From Comamonadaceae bacterium (GTDB lineage Bacteria > Pseudomonadota > Gammaproteobacteria > Burkholderiales > Burkholderiaceae_C), in assembly GCA_947373105.1 (NCBI GenBank), contig CANBWK010000001.1, positions 1 to 64,000 on the forward strand: DNA of 64,000 nucleotides. Direction: 5' to 3'. The translations under genes were made by a program, and so were the position numbers. The notes beneath the pieces were generated by a model. That model did no database searches. It saw nothing but the letters and a program-made list of their open reading frames with translations, and was not told where the DNA came from. Every line of letters starts with the position of its first letter. Positions within the stretch are counted from its first letter, which is position 1. This document shows, in pieces, positions 1,008-60,288 of the stretch.

Positions 1008-4000
1008 CAACCCACCCACTTGCGAGCGTTTTGCCAGATGCGCAGCCATGGACTGTTGGTATTTAAGTCCCCACTTGTCCAACTCATCTGAATGTTGCGA
1101 AAGACGCGTTCAGGGTGCGGCATCATTGCCGTGAAACGACCGTCCGCGGTTGTGACGGCCGTGAGTCCCCCTTTGCTGCCGTTAGGGTTGAAGGGGTACT
1201 GATCAGATGCCTGGCCATGGTTGTCTACGAAACGCATAGCACCAATGACATTCGCTGAATTGCCACGGTGTTTGAAGTTGGCAAAGCCCTCTCCATGCGC
1301 CACGGCAATAGGCAGACGGCTTCCCGCCATTCCTTGCAGGAAAAGGCTGGGGGATTCAAGGACCTCAACCAAGGACAGGCGGGCTTCAAAGCGCTCACTC
1401 TGATTGGTGGTGAAGCGAGGCCAATCTTGCGCGCCGGGAATGATATCGGCCAATTCAGCAAACATCTGGCAACCATTGCACACACCAAGTCCAAAGGTAT
1501 CTGTTCGGCCAAAGAAACCTTTGAACTGTTCAGCCAGCAAGGGGTTGAACGTGATGCTGCGTGCCCAACCAATGCCCGCACCCAGTGTGTCCCCGTAACT
1601 AAAGCCACCGCAAGCCACTAGTCCTTGGAAGTCTTTCAGTTGAGCACGACCTGATTGCAAATCGGTCATGTGCACGTCGTGCGCTTCAAAACCTGCGGCA
1701 TTAAAGGCATAGGCCATTTCCACATGAGAGTTCACACCCTGTTCACGAAGGATGGCTACTTTGGGATGCGATAAATTGAGAAACGGCGTGGCTACGTTTT
1801 CTGTTGCATCAAATCGCAAGTCCACGTGCATCCCCGGATCGGTCGCCGCACCGGCGGCTGCGTGTTCGGCATCCGCGCAAGCCGGGTTGTCACGTTGTCT
1901 GGCAATTTTCCAACTCACGCTGTCCCACACTTGGTGCAAGTCTTCGAGGGGCGCAGAGAATACCTCCTTGGCATCTCGCCAAACACTCAGAGCGCCCTGC
2001 CCCGCACTCATGCTTGCGTTTCTAGGGCGGGTTTTGCCAATGACATGGCTGTGTTTTGACAAACCGTGCTCGCGCAAAATTTGCATCACGGTGCTGCGGT
2101 CGGCAGTGCGAACTTGCACAACCACCCCCAACTCTTCGTTGAACAGTGCTTTCAGTGTCAACTCTTCTCGTCGACCGCTGACTTGGTTTGCCCAGTTTTT
2201 AGCGTCCCCATGGTCTGCGCGGCTGTCGGTAATGCCATCGCCCTCTGTCATCAACATGTCCACGTTCAGCGCCACACCCACATGACCTGCAAAGGCCATT
2301 TCAGCCACAGCAGCAAATAAACCACCGTCACTGCGGTCATGGAAGGCCAGCAGCAAACCTTGTGAACGCAAAGCATTGATAGCGTTGACTAAATTCACCA
2401 AGTCTTGCGCTGCGTCTAGATCAGGCACACGATCACCAAATTGGCTGATTAACTGCCCCAAAATAGAGCCGCCCATGCGATTTTGTCCGTGACCTAAATC
2501 GATCAACAATAAACTGGTGTCATCGTTGTCGCACAATTGCGGGGTCAGGGTGCCACGCACATCCTTTAGGGTTACGAAGGCGCTGACAATCAAGCTCACT
2601 GGCGAGGTCACTTTGCGCGTCTCGTTGTCTGCCTGCCATTGCGTGCGCATGGACAAGCTGTCTTTGCCAACCGGTATGGACACGCCCAAAGCGGGGCAAA
2701 GTTCCATGCCAATGGCTTTGACCGTTTCATACAGTGCGGCATCTTCACCTGGCTCACCACAGGCAGCCATCCAGTTGGCGCTGAGCTTGACTCGCGTCAA
2801 CTCCATGGGCGCCGCCAACAAGTTGGTAATGGCTTCGGCGACGGCCATGCGACCGGAGGCCGGCGCATCCAACGAGGCCAACGGCGTTCTTTCCCCCATG
2901 CTCATGGCTTCCCCGGCAAAGCCTTGGTAGTCTGCCAAAGTCACCGCCACGTCGGCCACCGGCACTTGCCACGGACCGACCATTTGGTCGCGGTGGGTCA
3001 TGCCTCCAACAGTGCGGTCGCCAATGGTGATCAAAAAGCGTTTGGAGGCCACGCTAGGGTGACTCAAAACACCCACCACGGCATCCTGCAAAGTCACACC
3101 CGTCAAATCCATGGGAGGCGACAAGCGGGCTACGGTCGTGACATCGCGGTGCATTTTGGGTGGTTTGCCCAGCAGCACATCCATCGGCATGTCGACGGGT
3201 CTATTGTCTGGGGCTTGCAAATCATCCAACACCAATTGGCGCTCTTGAGTTGCGACGCCCACCACAGCAAAAGGACAACGCTCGCGTTCACAAAAGGCTT
3301 GGAACTGAGGCAGGGATTCTGGCGCAATGGCCAATACGTAACGCTCTTGGCTTTCGTTGGACCAAATCTCTTTAGGAGCTAAGCCGGACTCTTCTAAGGG
3401 CACTGCGCGAAGCTCGAAACGAGCACCACGACCGGCATCGTTGGTCAGCTCGGGAAACGCATTGGACAAGCCACCTGCCCCCACGTCATGAATGGCCAGA
3501 ATGGGGTTGGCCTTGCCTTGCGCACAGCAATGGTTGATGACCTCTTGCGCACGGCGCTCGATCTCGGGGTTGCCCCGTTGGACAGAATCAAAGTCCAGGT
3601 TGGCCGCGTTCGTGCCTGTAGCCATTGAACTTGCAGCACTGCCGCCCATGCCAATGCGCATCCCTGGCCCCCCAAGTTGGATCAGCAAACTGCCTGCAGG
3701 AAACTCAATCTTGTGCGTCAAGCCCGCGTCGATCACGCCCAAACCGCCAGCAATCATGATCGGCTTGTGGTAGCCACGCACCACGCCATCGACTGTTTGC
3801 TCGTATTCGCGGAAATAGCCCAACAAGTTGGGCCGGCCAAACTCGTTGTTGAAGGCCGCCCCACCCAAGGGTCCTTCGGTCATGATCTGCAAAGGGCTGG
3901 CAATGTGCTCGGGCTTGCCACCTGCCACTTCAGACATCCCGCCCCAGAGTTTGGAAACCGTGAAGCCAGTCATACCTGCTTTGGGTTTGGAGCCACGTCC

Positions 4001-5008
4001 GGTGGCGCCTTCGTCGCGAATTTCTCCACCAGCGCCAGTTGACGCACCAGGAAAAGGTGAAATGGCGGTGGGGTGATTATGGGTTTCCACCTTCATCAGG
4101 ACATGGTGCAAGGCGTTTTCTGCTTCATAGGCGGCGCCTGATGCACTGCTTCGAGCAACAAAGCGCTGCACTGTATGGCCTTCCATTACGGACGCATTGT
4201 CTGAATAGGCCACCACCGTATGCTGAGGATTGACCTGGTGCGTATTCCGAATCATGCCGAACAGGCTCATGTCCTGCTGAACACCATCAATGGTGAACTG
4301 CGCGTTGAAAATTTTGTGTCTGCAATGCTCGCTGTTGGCTTGAGCAAACATCATCAACTCCACATCAGTAGGGTTGCGTTTGAGGCCTTGAAAGGCGTTG
4401 ACCAGGTACTCAATCTCATCCTCCGCCAGGGCCAGACCGAACTGAAGGTTGGCGGACTCCAAAGCTTTTTTGCCCATTTCAGGGCCACCTGCCAGCACAT
4501 CCACATGCACCATGGGTGCAGGGTTGAGTACCGTAAATAAAGCTGCCGCCTCGTTTCGGCTGGCCATAGCGGACTCGGTCATCCGATCGTGTAATGCCGC
4601 AGAGGCAAGTCTCAATTGCTCGGCACTCAGTTTGGCCGTTCCCAGCAAACCCGACTTAAGAATCAAACGGTATTCCGTCAGACGTTCCACGCGGCGAACG
4701 TCAAAACCGCAGTTGTGGGCGATGTCGGTGGCTTTGGATGCCCAAGGCGAGACGGTGCCTATGCGTGGGCTGACCACAATCACTGGCCCCTCATGGGGGC
4801 CAACATAAGGTTCACCATAAGTCAAAAGGGCTGAAAGGGTTTGCCTTTGATCCTCGGCCAAAGCCTCTGTGGTGGCGACCAAATGCACAAATCGGGCTGA
4901 AATCCCCTGAATGTGAGGCGAAATCTGGACTAGTCGAGGTAAAAGTTGAGCAATGCGAAAGTCGCTGAGGGCGCTAGCGCCTTCGAAAGTCGTAATGTGA
5001 AGGGACAC
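1007..5008 (-). CDS. purL: Phosphoribosylformylglycinamidine synthase (large, PurL/PurM/GATase fused form)
   Basis: ~1330 aa; FGAMS motifs ([44 protein letters not shown]) and C-terminal glutamine amidotransferase ([17 protein letters not shown]). GTG start ([18 protein letters not shown]) judged more likely than the ORF-track start. Confidence 0.97.
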
Positions 5009-55202: not shown

Positions 55203-55727
55203 TTAAAACTGCCCCGCACGCGCAGGTTGTTTCATGCCTGCGTCCACCCAGGCTTTCACAATATGACGGTTGAACTTGAAAGACGGGTCAACCTTCCACT
55301 GCGCCAGCAACTCGCCACCTTCGTCTTGCGCACGCAAGGAAGCGGACGGGTTGTCTTCGTCCGGCTCAATGTCCAGCATGACCGTCACCCGTCCTGCAGG
55401 CCCCTCCACCGAAAGGCTCTGGTGGAGGCTGGCATGCAATTGCTGCTCAGAGCGGCGTACAAATTCGCCGGCTGTTTTCACCAGGGTGATGAAAGCATTA
55501 CCGTCCAGCGGCTTCGGATTTTTTTTGTCGCGCCCCATGGTCCACGGGCCGACCAAGGCGGGCTCCGTCTGCCCAGTTTTGAACATCGCCACCGCCCAGC
55601 CATCGTCGTCTTCATTTTTGACGACGCGGGCCGTCCAGAGCTCGTCTTGCCAAACGCGGGGTTCTTGAATCAGCGGGTTGTCTTCGGTCAAAGCTTGCTT
55701 TTCTGTGAAAGTGAAGGGATGGGCCAT
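55203..55727 (-). CDS. Conserved-looking hypothetical protein
   Basis: MAHPFTFTEKQALTEDNPLIQEPRVWQDELWTARVVKNEDDDGWAVAMFK...; family not recognised. Confidence 0.7.
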   Translation of the reverse strand: MAHPFTFTEKQALTEDNPLIQEPRVWQDELWTARVVKNEDDDGWAVAMFKTGQTEPALVGPWTMGRDKKNPKPLDGNAFITLVKTAGEFVRRSEQQLHASLHQSLSVEGPAGRVTVMLDIEPDEDNPSASLRAQDEGGELLAQWKVDPSFKFNRHIVKAWVDAGMKQPARAGQF

Positions 55728-55809
55728 TTTGACCCATCTTGACCTGATGCTTTTGAACAATCAACCCACATGGGCTCCTGTAAAGTTCAGCCAGACCACA
55801 GGAATCAGC

Positions 55810-57354
55810 ATGCACAAATCAAAAACTACCGCAACCCCCAATAGCGGACCCGGCTTTGACAGCCTCGATTCAGACCTGCTGATTGTGGGCGCAGGCCTGT
55901 CGGGCATCGGCGCGGCGCGCCATCTTCAAGCCCACAGCCCCCATACCCGCTGGGCCATGGTAGAAGCACGAGCAAGCTTGGGCGGCACATGGGACTTGTT
56001 CCGCTACCCCGGCGTACGCTCAGACTCTGATATGCACACGTTGGGTTATGACTTCAAACCTTGGACAGATCGCAAAGCCATAGCCGATGGGCCGTCCATC
56101 CTGCGCTACATCCAAAGCACCGCTGACGAATCAGGCATCACAGGGCAAATTCAATTTGGCCGAAAAGTGATGCGCGCAGATTGGTCAACTGCCCGCTCCT
56201 GTTGGTGCGTCACTTTGTCACAAGCAAACGGCTCTCAGGAGTTAGTGACAACCCGATTTTTGTACCTTTGCAGCGGATATTACAGCTATACCCAGGCGCA
56301 CCAACCCGCATTTGAAGGCCAAGCCACATTTCAGGGAAAGTGGGTGCACCCGCAGTTTTGGCCACAAGACCTGGACTACAGCGGCAAAAGGGTGGTGGTG
56401 ATTGGCAGTGGCGCCACAGCCGCCACGCTGGTGCCGGCCATGGCCGCCAAGGCAGCACATGTGACTATGCTGCAGCGCTCTCCGACGTATATGGTTTCGC
56501 GCCCAACTGAAGACGCCATGGCCTTGAATCTCCAGCGATTCTTGCCCGAGCGCTTGGCGCACAACCTGACGCGCTGGAAAAACATTTTGCTGGGTATGTA
56601 TTTCTTTCGTCTGTCACGCCGTTACCCAGACAAGGTTAAAAACCATTTGATTGGCCTGACACAACAGCAACTGGGTACTGACTTTGATACGGCCAAGCAC
56701 TTCACACCACGCTACAGCCCTTGGGACCAACGCATTTGCTTAGTGCCGGATGGCGATCTTTTTCGCGAAGTTCGCGCTGGGCATGCATCGGTCGTCACAG
56801 ACACCATTGTGCGCATCACACCGAACGGCATTGAATTGGCCAGCGGCGAGCACCTAGCGGCCGATATCATCATCAGCGCTACAGGTTTGCAACTTAACGC
56901 TTTGGGCGATATTGCCTTCAGCGTGGATGGGCAAACCTACAACCCCGCACAGGCCATGGCCTACAAAGGAATGATGTTGTCTGACCTGCCCAATGTGTTC
57001 ATGGCCATGGGGTATACCAACGCATCATGGACGCTCAAAGCCGATTTGACTGCGAGCTATGTCTGCCGACTTTTGAAACACATGGAACACCATAGCTATT
57101 CACAGGCCGTGCCGCGCAAAGACCCTCTTGTGAAGGCGCAGCCTTATTTTGATTTTTCATCAAGCTATGTGCAGCGCGCAACGTCTGTTCTGCCCATGCA
57201 GGGAGACCGCGCGCCTTGGCGAGTGCATCAAAACTACCTGGCCGATATGCTCAGCCTGCGCTGGGGCCGCTTGGACGATGGCGTCATGCAATTTAAAGGT
57301 CATGCCAAGACCGAACATGCTGACCTGAGCGTGACAAGGTCCGAACCCGACTAA
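55810..57354 (+). CDS. Flavin-containing/Baeyer-Villiger-type monooxygenase
   Basis: LLIVGAGLSGIGAARHLQ; GTWDLFRYPGVRSDSDMHTLGYDFKPW; VVVIGSGATAATLVPAMA; start at MHKSKTTATPN. Confidence 0.9.
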   Translation: MHKSKTTATPNSGPGFDSLDSDLLIVGAGLSGIGAARHLQAHSPHTRWAMVEARASLGGTWDLFRYPGVRSDSDMHTLGYDFKPWTDRKAIADGPSILRYIQSTADESGITGQIQFGRKVMRADWSTARSCWCVTLSQANGSQELVTTRFLYLCSGYYSYTQAHQPAFEGQATFQGKWVHPQFWPQDLDYSGKRVVVIGSGATAATLVPAMAAKAAHVTMLQRSPTYMVSRPTEDAMALNLQRFLPERLAHNLTRWKNILLGMYFFRLSRRYPDKVKNHLIGLTQQQLGTDFDTAKHFTPRYSPWDQRICLVPDGDLFREVRAGHASVVTDTIVRITPNGIELASGEHLAADIIISATGLQLNALGDIAFSVDGQTYNPAQAMAYKGMMLSDLPNVFMAMGYTNASWTLKADLTASYVCRLLKHMEHHSYSQAVPRKDPLVKAQPYFDFSSSYVQRATSVLPMQGDRAPWRVHQNYLADMLSLRWGRLDDGVMQFKGHAKTEHADLSVTRSEPD

Positions 57355-57379
57355 AATAGATGGGATTGAAAGACCGTGA

Positions 57380-57691
57380 ATGACAGAGCACAAGACTGAA
57401 CACTACGCAGCACTCGGGCTCAAGAGCGATGCAAGCCTTGCTGATATTAAAAAAGCGTTTCGCCAAAAAGCATCGCAATTTCACCCTGACCGCAACACAG
57501 CCGATGAAGCACCTGCGCGATTTCGCGAAGTTCAAGAGGCCTATGACGTGCTTTCGGATGATGCCAAGCGGCAAGCCTACGACGACAACCGTCGGCGTAA
57601 TTTATTGGATGACCCAGCTCTCACAGCGCTTGAGATCTGGCAAACATACTTCGCCCCTCTGCGGTCAAAAACCAACCCGCCAAAGATTTGA
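57380..57691 (+). CDS. Minimal J-domain protein
   Basis: 103 aa: YAALGLKSDASLADIKKAFRQKASQFHPDRN...FREVQEAYDVLSDDAKRQAYD; HPD present; no G/F-rich or zinc-finger region. Confidence 0.93.
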   Translation: MTEHKTEHYAALGLKSDASLADIKKAFRQKASQFHPDRNTADEAPARFREVQEAYDVLSDDAKRQAYDDNRRRNLLDDPALTALEIWQTYFAPLRSKTNPPKI

Positions 57692-57695
57692 ACCG

Positions 57696-58286
57696 ATGCA
57701 TATTTCTTCTTTTTTTCTTGAACTTCGCAGTGCTTATCAAGCCGAACTGGACGACCTGACTTTCGACTCCGAGGGCCGCAATGTTTTGCGTAAACGATTG
57801 ACTGAAAAACGGCAGGAGCTGGGTTTCTTATTTCAGTTAATGGATTTGCACCCTGAAATGGTGGCTGTCGTCCTGCACCAGGCTTTCACGTTCACAGTGC
57901 CCACCGTGATGGACCATTTTTTAACCCATCACGATGATGAGTTATTGGCTTGGGGCAAATTGAAGCATGCCTTGAAAATAGAAGTATGGGCTCAGCCCAT
58001 TGTGGACCAAATTTTGCTCGAGCCTATGGGCGAATGGTTTATGAGTGTGGCTGCAGCACTTGAATACATGCACAGCAAACCCCTTAGCGCAGACAACCGA
58101 CCTGTTGTCAGCCAAGAAGATGCTGATAAAGATGGGCATGAAGAAACCTCATCGCGACACGAAGGCAGTGATGATCACCGCGAAGCCACCGCTGAAGACG
58201 GAGAAGAAGCTGATGAGCGTGCCCGTGAAGAGGCTGGAAATGACTGGCTGGCTGGACAAGGCTTTGACCGCAAGGATAGATCATGA
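57696..58286 (+). CDS. Unknown protein with helical N-terminus and highly charged C-terminus
   Basis: Start at MHISSFFLELRSAYQ, 4 nt after the J-protein stop (in frame with track ORF 57429..58286). Confidence 0.8.
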   Translation: MHISSFFLELRSAYQAELDDLTFDSEGRNVLRKRLTEKRQELGFLFQLMDLHPEMVAVVLHQAFTFTVPTVMDHFLTHHDDELLAWGKLKHALKIEVWAQPIVDQILLEPMGEWFMSVAAALEYMHSKPLSADNRPVVSQEDADKDGHEETSSRHEGSDDHREATAEDGEEADERAREEAGNDWLAGQGFDRKDRS

Positions 58287-59047
58287 AAAGTGATTCGAAT
58301 TCCAGCGCGGTCGCATTGATCGCTAAAACGCAAAGCTTGATCGCATCTGGCGACATTGTGGCCGCTGAAGCGGCCCTGGTCGAACTGGCTGACGAGCAAG
58401 GTGACAACGCTTTGATGGTCGTCCTTGAACAACTTCCCGCCAAGGACATGCTGGCCGTTATTCGGGAATATGACAACTCTAAAGAGTCTGTCATTAATTT
58501 GTTGGTGACCCCCGCTCAATTCGCACGGGCAGTTGTTATCGAGAAGCAATACAAAGACCTGTCCCGAACGCATTTGCGCGGCATGATGAATGCGATCATT
58601 TTCAGAGATGATGCTGACCCTGTAGAGTTCTTGACGCACATTGGTGACCTCGAAGGGGGCGCCGAAGCTTTGGCAGACTACTTTTCTGAAAAATGGAGCC
58701 GTATCGAAGCTTTTGCATGTACAGGCCTCTTCGACGCGGTGGAAGATGATGGCCGCATGCTTTCTGAAAATGCACTCTTCTCTTCGGCTCACGTCAGACC
58801 TAAATTGGATGAAGATGAGGTCGCTGACCAAGACTGGATGCAAATGGCATGGACACTGCGCTACAAATGTCCTGATTTATTTGTAGAAATGCTTTTGGTC
58901 TTACGCGCTAAAGCCAGGGCACACGACCTTGGACTTTTGAATGAAGAAGATCCATCCGAAGACGATGGAAAAATAGAAACCAGCGCCACAGATCGAGGCA
59001 AGATCACACAGGCCGCGATAGATCCAGACGAAGAGTCGGCCATTTAA
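58283..59047 (+). CDS. Unknown acidic helical protein
   Basis: 254 aa; ATGA overlap with the preceding ORF; no recognisable family. Confidence 0.82.
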   Translation: MKSDSNSSAVALIAKTQSLIASGDIVAAEAALVELADEQGDNALMVVLEQLPAKDMLAVIREYDNSKESVINLLVTPAQFARAVVIEKQYKDLSRTHLRGMMNAIIFRDDADPVEFLTHIGDLEGGAEALADYFSEKWSRIEAFACTGLFDAVEDDGRMLSENALFSSAHVRPKLDEDEVADQDWMQMAWTLRYKCPDLFVEMLLVLRAKARAHDLGLLNEEDPSEDDGKIETSATDRGKITQAAIDPDEESAI

Positions 59048-59052
59048 AACTT

Positions 59053-60288
59053 ATGAGCGTTCAATCAGAAACCTCAAGAGCGGAGCCTTCCACTTCGGTG
59101 GCGCTTTTTGATGCCAGTCCTTTTTTTGAAAAAGTATTTTTCTTCGGAGTTCAACACGGCATCCTGGATCAAGCCAAACTGGACAGCATCCAAAACGACG
59201 CTCCCAAAGGCATGGTTCAGATTGCAAGGTATTTTGGAAGTGAATTTCTGCGCCCTGAATTGGAAAAAGCCCGGGACCGCATTATCAATTTGGTGAGTAT
59301 GAATTTGGAGCATGAAAGTGGTGGCGATTTGGCTGTCGCTGCAAAAATTCTCCGCGAGAACAGTTTCATGTCCCGCTCCAAAGCCGCTTCAGACATGCTC
59401 AAGGCCTTGATTGCCATGCCGCAAAACAGCCATTTTGGAATGAATGAACACGGCAGTTTCAGCGACAAGCACATTCCGCAATTGGCAAAATGGACCTTGT
59501 CTAATTTAGCCGAATACCAATCCGAGCTGGTCAAACGACAGGCTGTTGCACAACTCATCGATGCTGCTCAGTGGTTGGCTGACAGTTTAGGAATGGACGC
59601 GGACGATCTGGAGGATGCAGGGCCTGATGCCGAAGCCGTTATTCGTACTGCGTTATTGGTGCAGCATTGCCCGCAAAAAACGATTCCAGATTGGCTGAAT
59701 TTTCAACAATTGATATTGTCTTTGCGGAAAAAAAACGGCACAAAACCAATTCATTTGATTCTGCCAAAGGGTTTGCCTTCTGATTACAAACTCATTGTTG
59801 AACAGGTGCTTGAAACCATGAAAATGGATTTACCCAAAATTCTTGATGCCACACTCACACCACAAAAGTTATTCAATCAAACCCCAGCTTTTGTGGGCCG
59901 GTATTTCTGGATCGAAGACAGCCTTGCTCAGATCGATCATTTTGACCGTGAGGCAAGTGTCATTTGGAACAAGGTTACCAAAGGACACAGTGACGACAGC
60001 TCATTGCTGACAATGTTTCTTTGCATTGGAGCCGGTGTTTCGGGCAAAACCCTGTTGACCGAAAAATCCGCTTCAGCTTTGATCCGCAAAATCCGCAAAT
60101 CAGGTTTGCATTCGCCTTTGGTCACTCAATTTATTCTGGAACAAGCCCCAGTTCAATATCAATCTGATTACATCCATTTATGGGAGCGCTTTTTTGAGGA
60201 TGCGCAAGCCACACTTCAAAGTGACCGCGATTACAAGTTGCATGATGCGTTGGTCTTGTTGCGGAACGATTGCAACATCAGCGATTAA
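59053..60288 (+). CDS. Unknown 411-aa helical protein
   Basis: 5-nt gap after the preceding ORF; no signal peptide or TM segment; no recognisable family. Confidence 0.82.
   Translation: MSVQSETSRAEPSTSVALFDASPFFEKVFFFGVQHGILDQAKLDSIQNDAPKGMVQIARYFGSEFLRPELEKARDRIINLVSMNLEHESGGDLAVAAKILRENSFMSRSKAASDMLKALIAMPQNSHFGMNEHGSFSDKHIPQLAKWTLSNLAEYQSELVKRQAVAQLIDAAQWLADSLGMDADDLEDAGPDAEAVIRTALLVQHCPQKTIPDWLNFQQLILSLRKKNGTKPIHLILPKGLPSDYKLIVEQVLETMKMDLPKILDATLTPQKLFNQTPAFVGRYFWIEDSLAQIDHFDREASVIWNKVTKGHSDDSSLLTMFLCIGAGVSGKTLLTEKSASALIRKIRKSGLHSPLVTQFILEQAPVQYQSDYIHLWERFFEDAQATLQSDRDYKLHDALVLLRNDCNISD

Follow-up and report, generated by a model that had tools for sequence, protein, structure and literature searches.

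A distant copy of the atcJABC operon with a probable DnaK-recruiting role in a Comamonadaceae bacterium

The four-gene cluster and its conservation

The window analyzed here, a 64,000-nucleotide stretch of the genome of a Comamonadaceae bacterium, contains a cluster of four open reading frames, all on the forward strand: the first two are 4 nt apart, the second and third overlap by the 4 nt ATGA, and 5 nt lie between the third and the fourth (Table 1). Both the coordinates and the spacing confirm those given in an earlier sequence-only reading of the same DNA, which described a J protein followed by three unassignable proteins. The genes are named here after the operon to which they are assigned below. 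The frame of atcA is open upstream into atcJ, from position 57429; since the AtcA proteins of relatives have 172-199 amino acids, the start given in Table 1 fits.

Table 1. Features of the atcJABC-like cluster (positions in the window)
Feature	Position	Strand	Description	Basis or remark
atcJ	57380..57691	+	103-aa J-domain protein AtcJ	PF00226, E = 2.5e-22; NF050028 alignment below cut-off
HPD motif of AtcJ, residues 35-37	57482..57490	+	DnaK-activating tripeptide	invariant in alignment A2
AtcJ C-terminal extension, residues 69-103	57584..57688	+	RRxxLhDDPxxxAxEIWxxY conserved in relatives	putative AtcC-binding tail
P-x7-W motif PALTALEIW, residues 79-87 of AtcJ tail	57614..57640	+	sequence motif	
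atcA	57696..58286	+	196-aa AtcA homolog	hhalign profile match to bona fide AtcA
atcB	58283..59047	+	254-aa AtcB homolog	hhalign profile match; BLASTP 2e-4 to AtcB of locus L151
AtcB acidic C-terminal peptide DEESAI	59027..59044	+	conserved peptide	follows variable low-confidence linker
atcC	59053..60288	+	411-aa AtcC homolog	NF047890 below cut-off; hhalign profile match
Long-form AtcC C-terminal extension, about residues 285-411	59905..60285	+	absent from AtcC of about 300 aa	boundary approximate

These reading frames are real genes, because a congeneric genome (G015) holds a homolog of each in conserved order, with amino acid identities of 79% (J), 72% (A), 89% (B, the most conserved of the four proteins), and 68% (C), and because in all four genes the two genomes differ at 53-55% of the third codon positions and at 4-17% of the second. 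Codon-position differences were used here, as the dN/dS calculation was saturated at synonymous sites. The cluster is under purifying selection, and the same four-gene order is also found in other families of the window's taxonomic order.

A flavin monooxygenase gene on the same strand (region 55678-57380) ends 25 nt before atcJ. Read-through from this gene into atcJ is possible because of this distance, because no sigma-70-like site was found between the two genes, and because G015 (locus L025) has the two genes side by side as well; the adjacency is absent in another genus (L028). In a search for an empty site within the genus, the upstream block was shared by one genome only (L165), whose sequence stops at the monooxygenase.

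The J domain of AtcJ (residues 7-68) is intact, as is its HPD motif, in agreement with the sequence-only reading. The same reading saw a J domain and nothing else, which has to be corrected: AtcJ is a short J protein in which the HPD-containing J domain is followed by a short conserved C-terminal extension. By analogy with the Shewanella protein described below, this tail of about 34 residues is the putative AtcC-binding part. Two more J-domain hits were detected in the genome, one in a DnaJ-sized open frame of 377 amino acids and a weak one in a frame of 194 amino acids; AtcJ is therefore probably not the general co-chaperone of this organism.

Relationship to the atcJABC operon

A Pfam search of the cluster recognized the J domain only and gave nothing useful for the other three proteins. 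The NCBIfam collection contains models with equivalog cut-offs for AtcJ (NF050028), AtcA (NF047888), AtcB (NF047889), and AtcC (NF047890). The informative matches in the window were those of AtcJ and AtcC, both under the curated cut-offs: residues 7-91 of AtcJ align with positions 3-93 of the 93 in NF050028 (5.3e-16; 58.9 bits, cut-off 150 bits), and residues 20-107 of AtcC match the first third of the AtcC family of NF047890 (3.5e-4; 20.2 bits, cut-off 370 bits). AtcA and AtcB of the window had no NCBIfam hit. The equivalog cut-offs are thus missed by every window protein, which makes strict functional equivalence less claimable and leaves the claim of homology unaffected.

Bona fide operons are present in an Enterobacterales-like order, entered through a genome picked for the similarity of its DnaJ to that of E. 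coli. Of 248 genomes of this order, 31 have an AtcC that exceeds the curated cut-off, and at locus L151 all four proteins pass their respective NCBIfam cut-offs. Homology of the window's AtcA, AtcB, and AtcC to these Shewanella-type proteins is observed at the profile level. In hhalign comparisons with the bona fide profiles, the window-type profiles gave probabilities of 96.6% for AtcA (14 sequences; 6.9e-10), 95.7% for AtcB (9e-9; profile columns 9-136), and 95.5% for AtcC (1.4e-8; columns 15-210). Each matches only its positional counterpart, the cross-comparisons giving 0.22 at best and probabilities of 1% or less throughout, and an hmmsearch against 389 ORFs agrees with these gene-by-gene matches. 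At the level of single sequences, AtcJ is 31% identical over 91 aligned positions to that of L151 (BLASTP 8e-17) and AtcB retains the similarity given in Table 1; BLASTP detected no similarity of AtcA to the one bona fide AtcA compared, nor of AtcC to the single bona fide AtcC compared. Given this absence of pairwise similarity for A and C together with the scores of B and J, the relationship to the bona fide operons is remote but specific.

The order J-A-B-C on one strand, with atcA overlapping atcB, and the P-x7-W motif in the AtcJ tail are both characters by which we recognize an atcJABC operon, and both are found in the window. The motif is present in 11 of 14 window-form AtcJ proteins (10 of 13 when the window is set aside), in all 19 AtcJ tails from the 20 fetched Enterobacterales-like loci, and in 47 of 84 short-form AtcJ proteins, a further 32 of which have A-x7-W. 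Since P-x7-W also occurs in 5.6% of ORF tails (AtcJ included) and in 8% of shuffled window tails, a single occurrence means little, and it is the conservation of the motif that constitutes the evidence. Weber et al. reportedly described, in 2023, both this motif and the presence of atc operons among beta- and gammaproteobacteria; if so, Burkholderiales operons like that of the window already fall within the described range.

Proposed role and divergence of the operon

The atcJABC operon of Shewanella oneidensis MR-1 (SO_1850, SO_1849, SO_1848, and SO_1846) encodes an AtcJ of 94 amino acids, and its atcA (540 bp) and atcB (759 bp) overlap. AtcJ stimulates DnaK and binds AtcC with a Kd of 7 nM via its last 21 residues, AtcC binds AtcB, and growth at 7 °C needs J, B, and C (PMC6715715); AtcA is dispensable for cold growth. 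According to a meeting report, AtcB contacts RNA polymerase (PMC7871303).

The cluster in the window is a distant but recognizable copy of atcJABC, and hence an already explained rather than an unknown system; that it is an atcJABC operon and also has the DnaK-recruiting role is, taken jointly, very probable. The sequence-only reading proposed a dedicated chaperone module in which the J protein is locked to its neighbors and recruits DnaK, and in this it agrees with the published work. The other half of that reading, that the three partner proteins are unassignable, does not stand: they are AtcA, AtcB, and AtcC, each with a named NCBIfam family and with a Shewanella operon that has been studied experimentally. 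Hits to a characterized family, which were to count against the proposal, were therefore obtained in the form of the Atc families.

By analogy with S. oneidensis, AtcJ would act as a short class C J-domain co-chaperone, whose HPD-containing J domain engages DnaK and whose P-x7-W tail docks on AtcC. AtcC would in turn hold AtcB, so that the chain DnaK-AtcJ-AtcC-AtcB could place DnaK on a particular target, with AtcA as an accessory part. The leading candidate for this target would be RNA polymerase, or else a transcription assembly, with AtcB making the contact; for RNA polymerase itself, the assignment is tentative and falls somewhat short of an even chance. Support of growth at low temperature by this chain is a reasonably likely role in the window organism, again judging from Shewanella.

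Two parts of the proteins vary between clades. The C-terminus of AtcB consists of a disordered-looking linker followed by a short conserved acidic peptide, which could be a docking peptide. The window form has EESA(L/I) at this place, the short form DIFS, and the gammaproteobacterial forms DDMFSFLD or DDMFAPL. AtcC has 405-416 amino acids in most intact window-type loci and 286-306 in the short form, with some ORFs of the survey starting too far upstream or truncated where a contig ends. The additional C-terminal portion of about 110-127 residues is conserved and predicted to be helical, and matches no Pfam family. Either this extension or the AtcB tail peptide could mark a clade-specific target.

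Such variation could also speak for an alternative in which the cluster is an Atc-type DnaK-recruiting module by descent that in this Burkholderiales clade serves a non-cold client or stress via its longer AtcC. This possibility draws further on S. oneidensis, where temperature has little effect on atc expression and the authors leave room for an additional role (PMC6715715). However, the AtcJ tail motif, the gene order, and the core of B and C are all conserved, and we regard this alternative as unlikely, if worth retaining. Somewhat less likely again is its more specific version, in which the long-AtcC Burkholderiales form is a divergent Atc module whose extension and AtcB tail redirect DnaK to a target other than that in Shewanella.

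The AlphaFold models of AtcB (pLDDT 80.2) and AtcC (pLDDT 84.9) are essentially all-helical, and a Foldseek search with both found no PDB match at E<=0.001. Sigma-factor entries in the fold list of AtcC (E 0.4-8, TM about 0.1) were treated as noise. A sequence search of the PDB gave only a weak match (E = 0.053) of the AtcB profile, in the N-terminal part of the protein (58283-58550), to the helical N-domain of the magnesium transporter MgtE; it was not supported by Foldseek, and a relation to MgtE was rejected.

Distribution and comparison with known systems

Among 300 genomes of the window's order searched with the 254-aa protein, 20 matched, including that of the window. The other 19, together with G015 from a search of near relatives, provide 20 further loci, 14 of the window form and six of a form with shorter AtcC. 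In total 120 loci were examined: these 20, 80 genome contigs, and 20 Enterobacterales-like loci, one Gallionella contig being represented twice (L044 and L046). A J gene lies within the cluster at 116 of them. Of the J-less loci, three (L034, L049, and L160) lie at the end of a contig or on a short one, and for L049 the same genome has a matching AtcC on a different contig, right at its end. At L050, in a Gallionella MAG (2990-4757), atcA-atcB has neither J nor C adjoining, and AtcC was not found in that genome; the gene pair is followed by an ORF of 146 aa for which Pfam gave no match. At four Gallionellaceae loci (three distinct; L044, L046, L047, and L048), the J gene is downstream and convergent, on the strand opposite to atcABC. 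As AtcB or AtcC served to find the loci, these counts show that B and C are seldom present without J, and do not extend to the frequency of lone J-like proteins. The routine occurrence of the partner genes apart from the J gene, the other finding that would have spoken against a linked module, was thus not observed.

The operon was found in two of 36 genomes of the genus and in 20 of the 300 in the order sample, and is therefore an accessory trait. No AtcC beyond that of the window was detected in a sample of 369 genomes of the class, and no AtcB in the plasmid collection. Named carriers of the short form include Janthinobacterium, Massilia, Duganella, Rugamonas, Gallionella, and Sideroxydans, among them M. 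polaris, M. psychrophila, and J. psychrotolerans, names that fit a role in the cold and do not prove it. A third, more divergent form occurs in some gammaproteobacteria (L157-L160), with AtcA of 153, AtcB of 215-217, and AtcC of 306 amino acids; its J protein has P-x7-W wherever the contig covers it.

An ordinary J protein beside unrelated genes, forming no functional module, might be suggested by the patchy distribution and by the fact that J domains are common and short, but the company of A, B, and C at nearly all loci and the conserved tail outside the J domain make it highly improbable. Just as improbable is a phage-defense, toxin-antitoxin, or phage-derived cluster with a J protein, for which the patchiness within the genus could speak: a PHROGs search of A, B, and C gave no match, PADLOC reported none of the three and only a chance-level hit of 13.8 bits for J, and the flanking genes are metabolic.

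With the assignment to atcJABC, a cluster that seemed unknown joins a chaperone-recruitment system that has already been studied. Atc members as remote as this one score under the annotation cut-offs and would be missed. Their divergent sequences separate the parts that are kept (the HPD motif, the P-x7-W tail, the N-terminal helices of AtcB, and the AtcC core) from the variable ones (the AtcC extension and the AtcB tail), and they facilitate tests, in bacteria other than Shewanella, of how Atc proteins use DnaK in the cold.

The cluster shares with the S. oneidensis operon the gene order, with J in front, the atcA/atcB overlap, and similar sizes of J, A, and B; in both, the J protein is short, has HPD, and ends in a brief C-terminal tail. 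Further, A, B, and the core of AtcC are homologous at the profile level to proteins passing the NCBIfam models named after the operon. It differs in that A and C are too distant for pairwise search, AtcC is about 110 residues longer than the Shewanella protein (about 300 aa, 34 kDa), AtcB ends in EESAI rather than in the Shewanella-type DDMFSFLD or DDMFTFLD, and the gap after atcJ is 4 nt instead of 120 bp. The short-AtcC operons of Oxalobacteraceae and Gallionellaceae (L039-L125) likewise contain J, A, B, and C. Their AtcC (hhalign 98.5%, 3.9e-15, window-form columns 15-284) and AtcB (98%, 1.5e-13) are homologous to those of the window form, whereas AtcA is only marginally similar (0.0024); they differ in the length of AtcC and in an AtcJ tail that often has A-x7-W. 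In its proposed manner of working, the system is comparable to HscB-IscU/HscA, where Hsp70 is brought to an operon-encoded partner by a class C J protein dedicated to it, although the two are unrelated outside the J domain and the window cluster contains no Fe-S genes.
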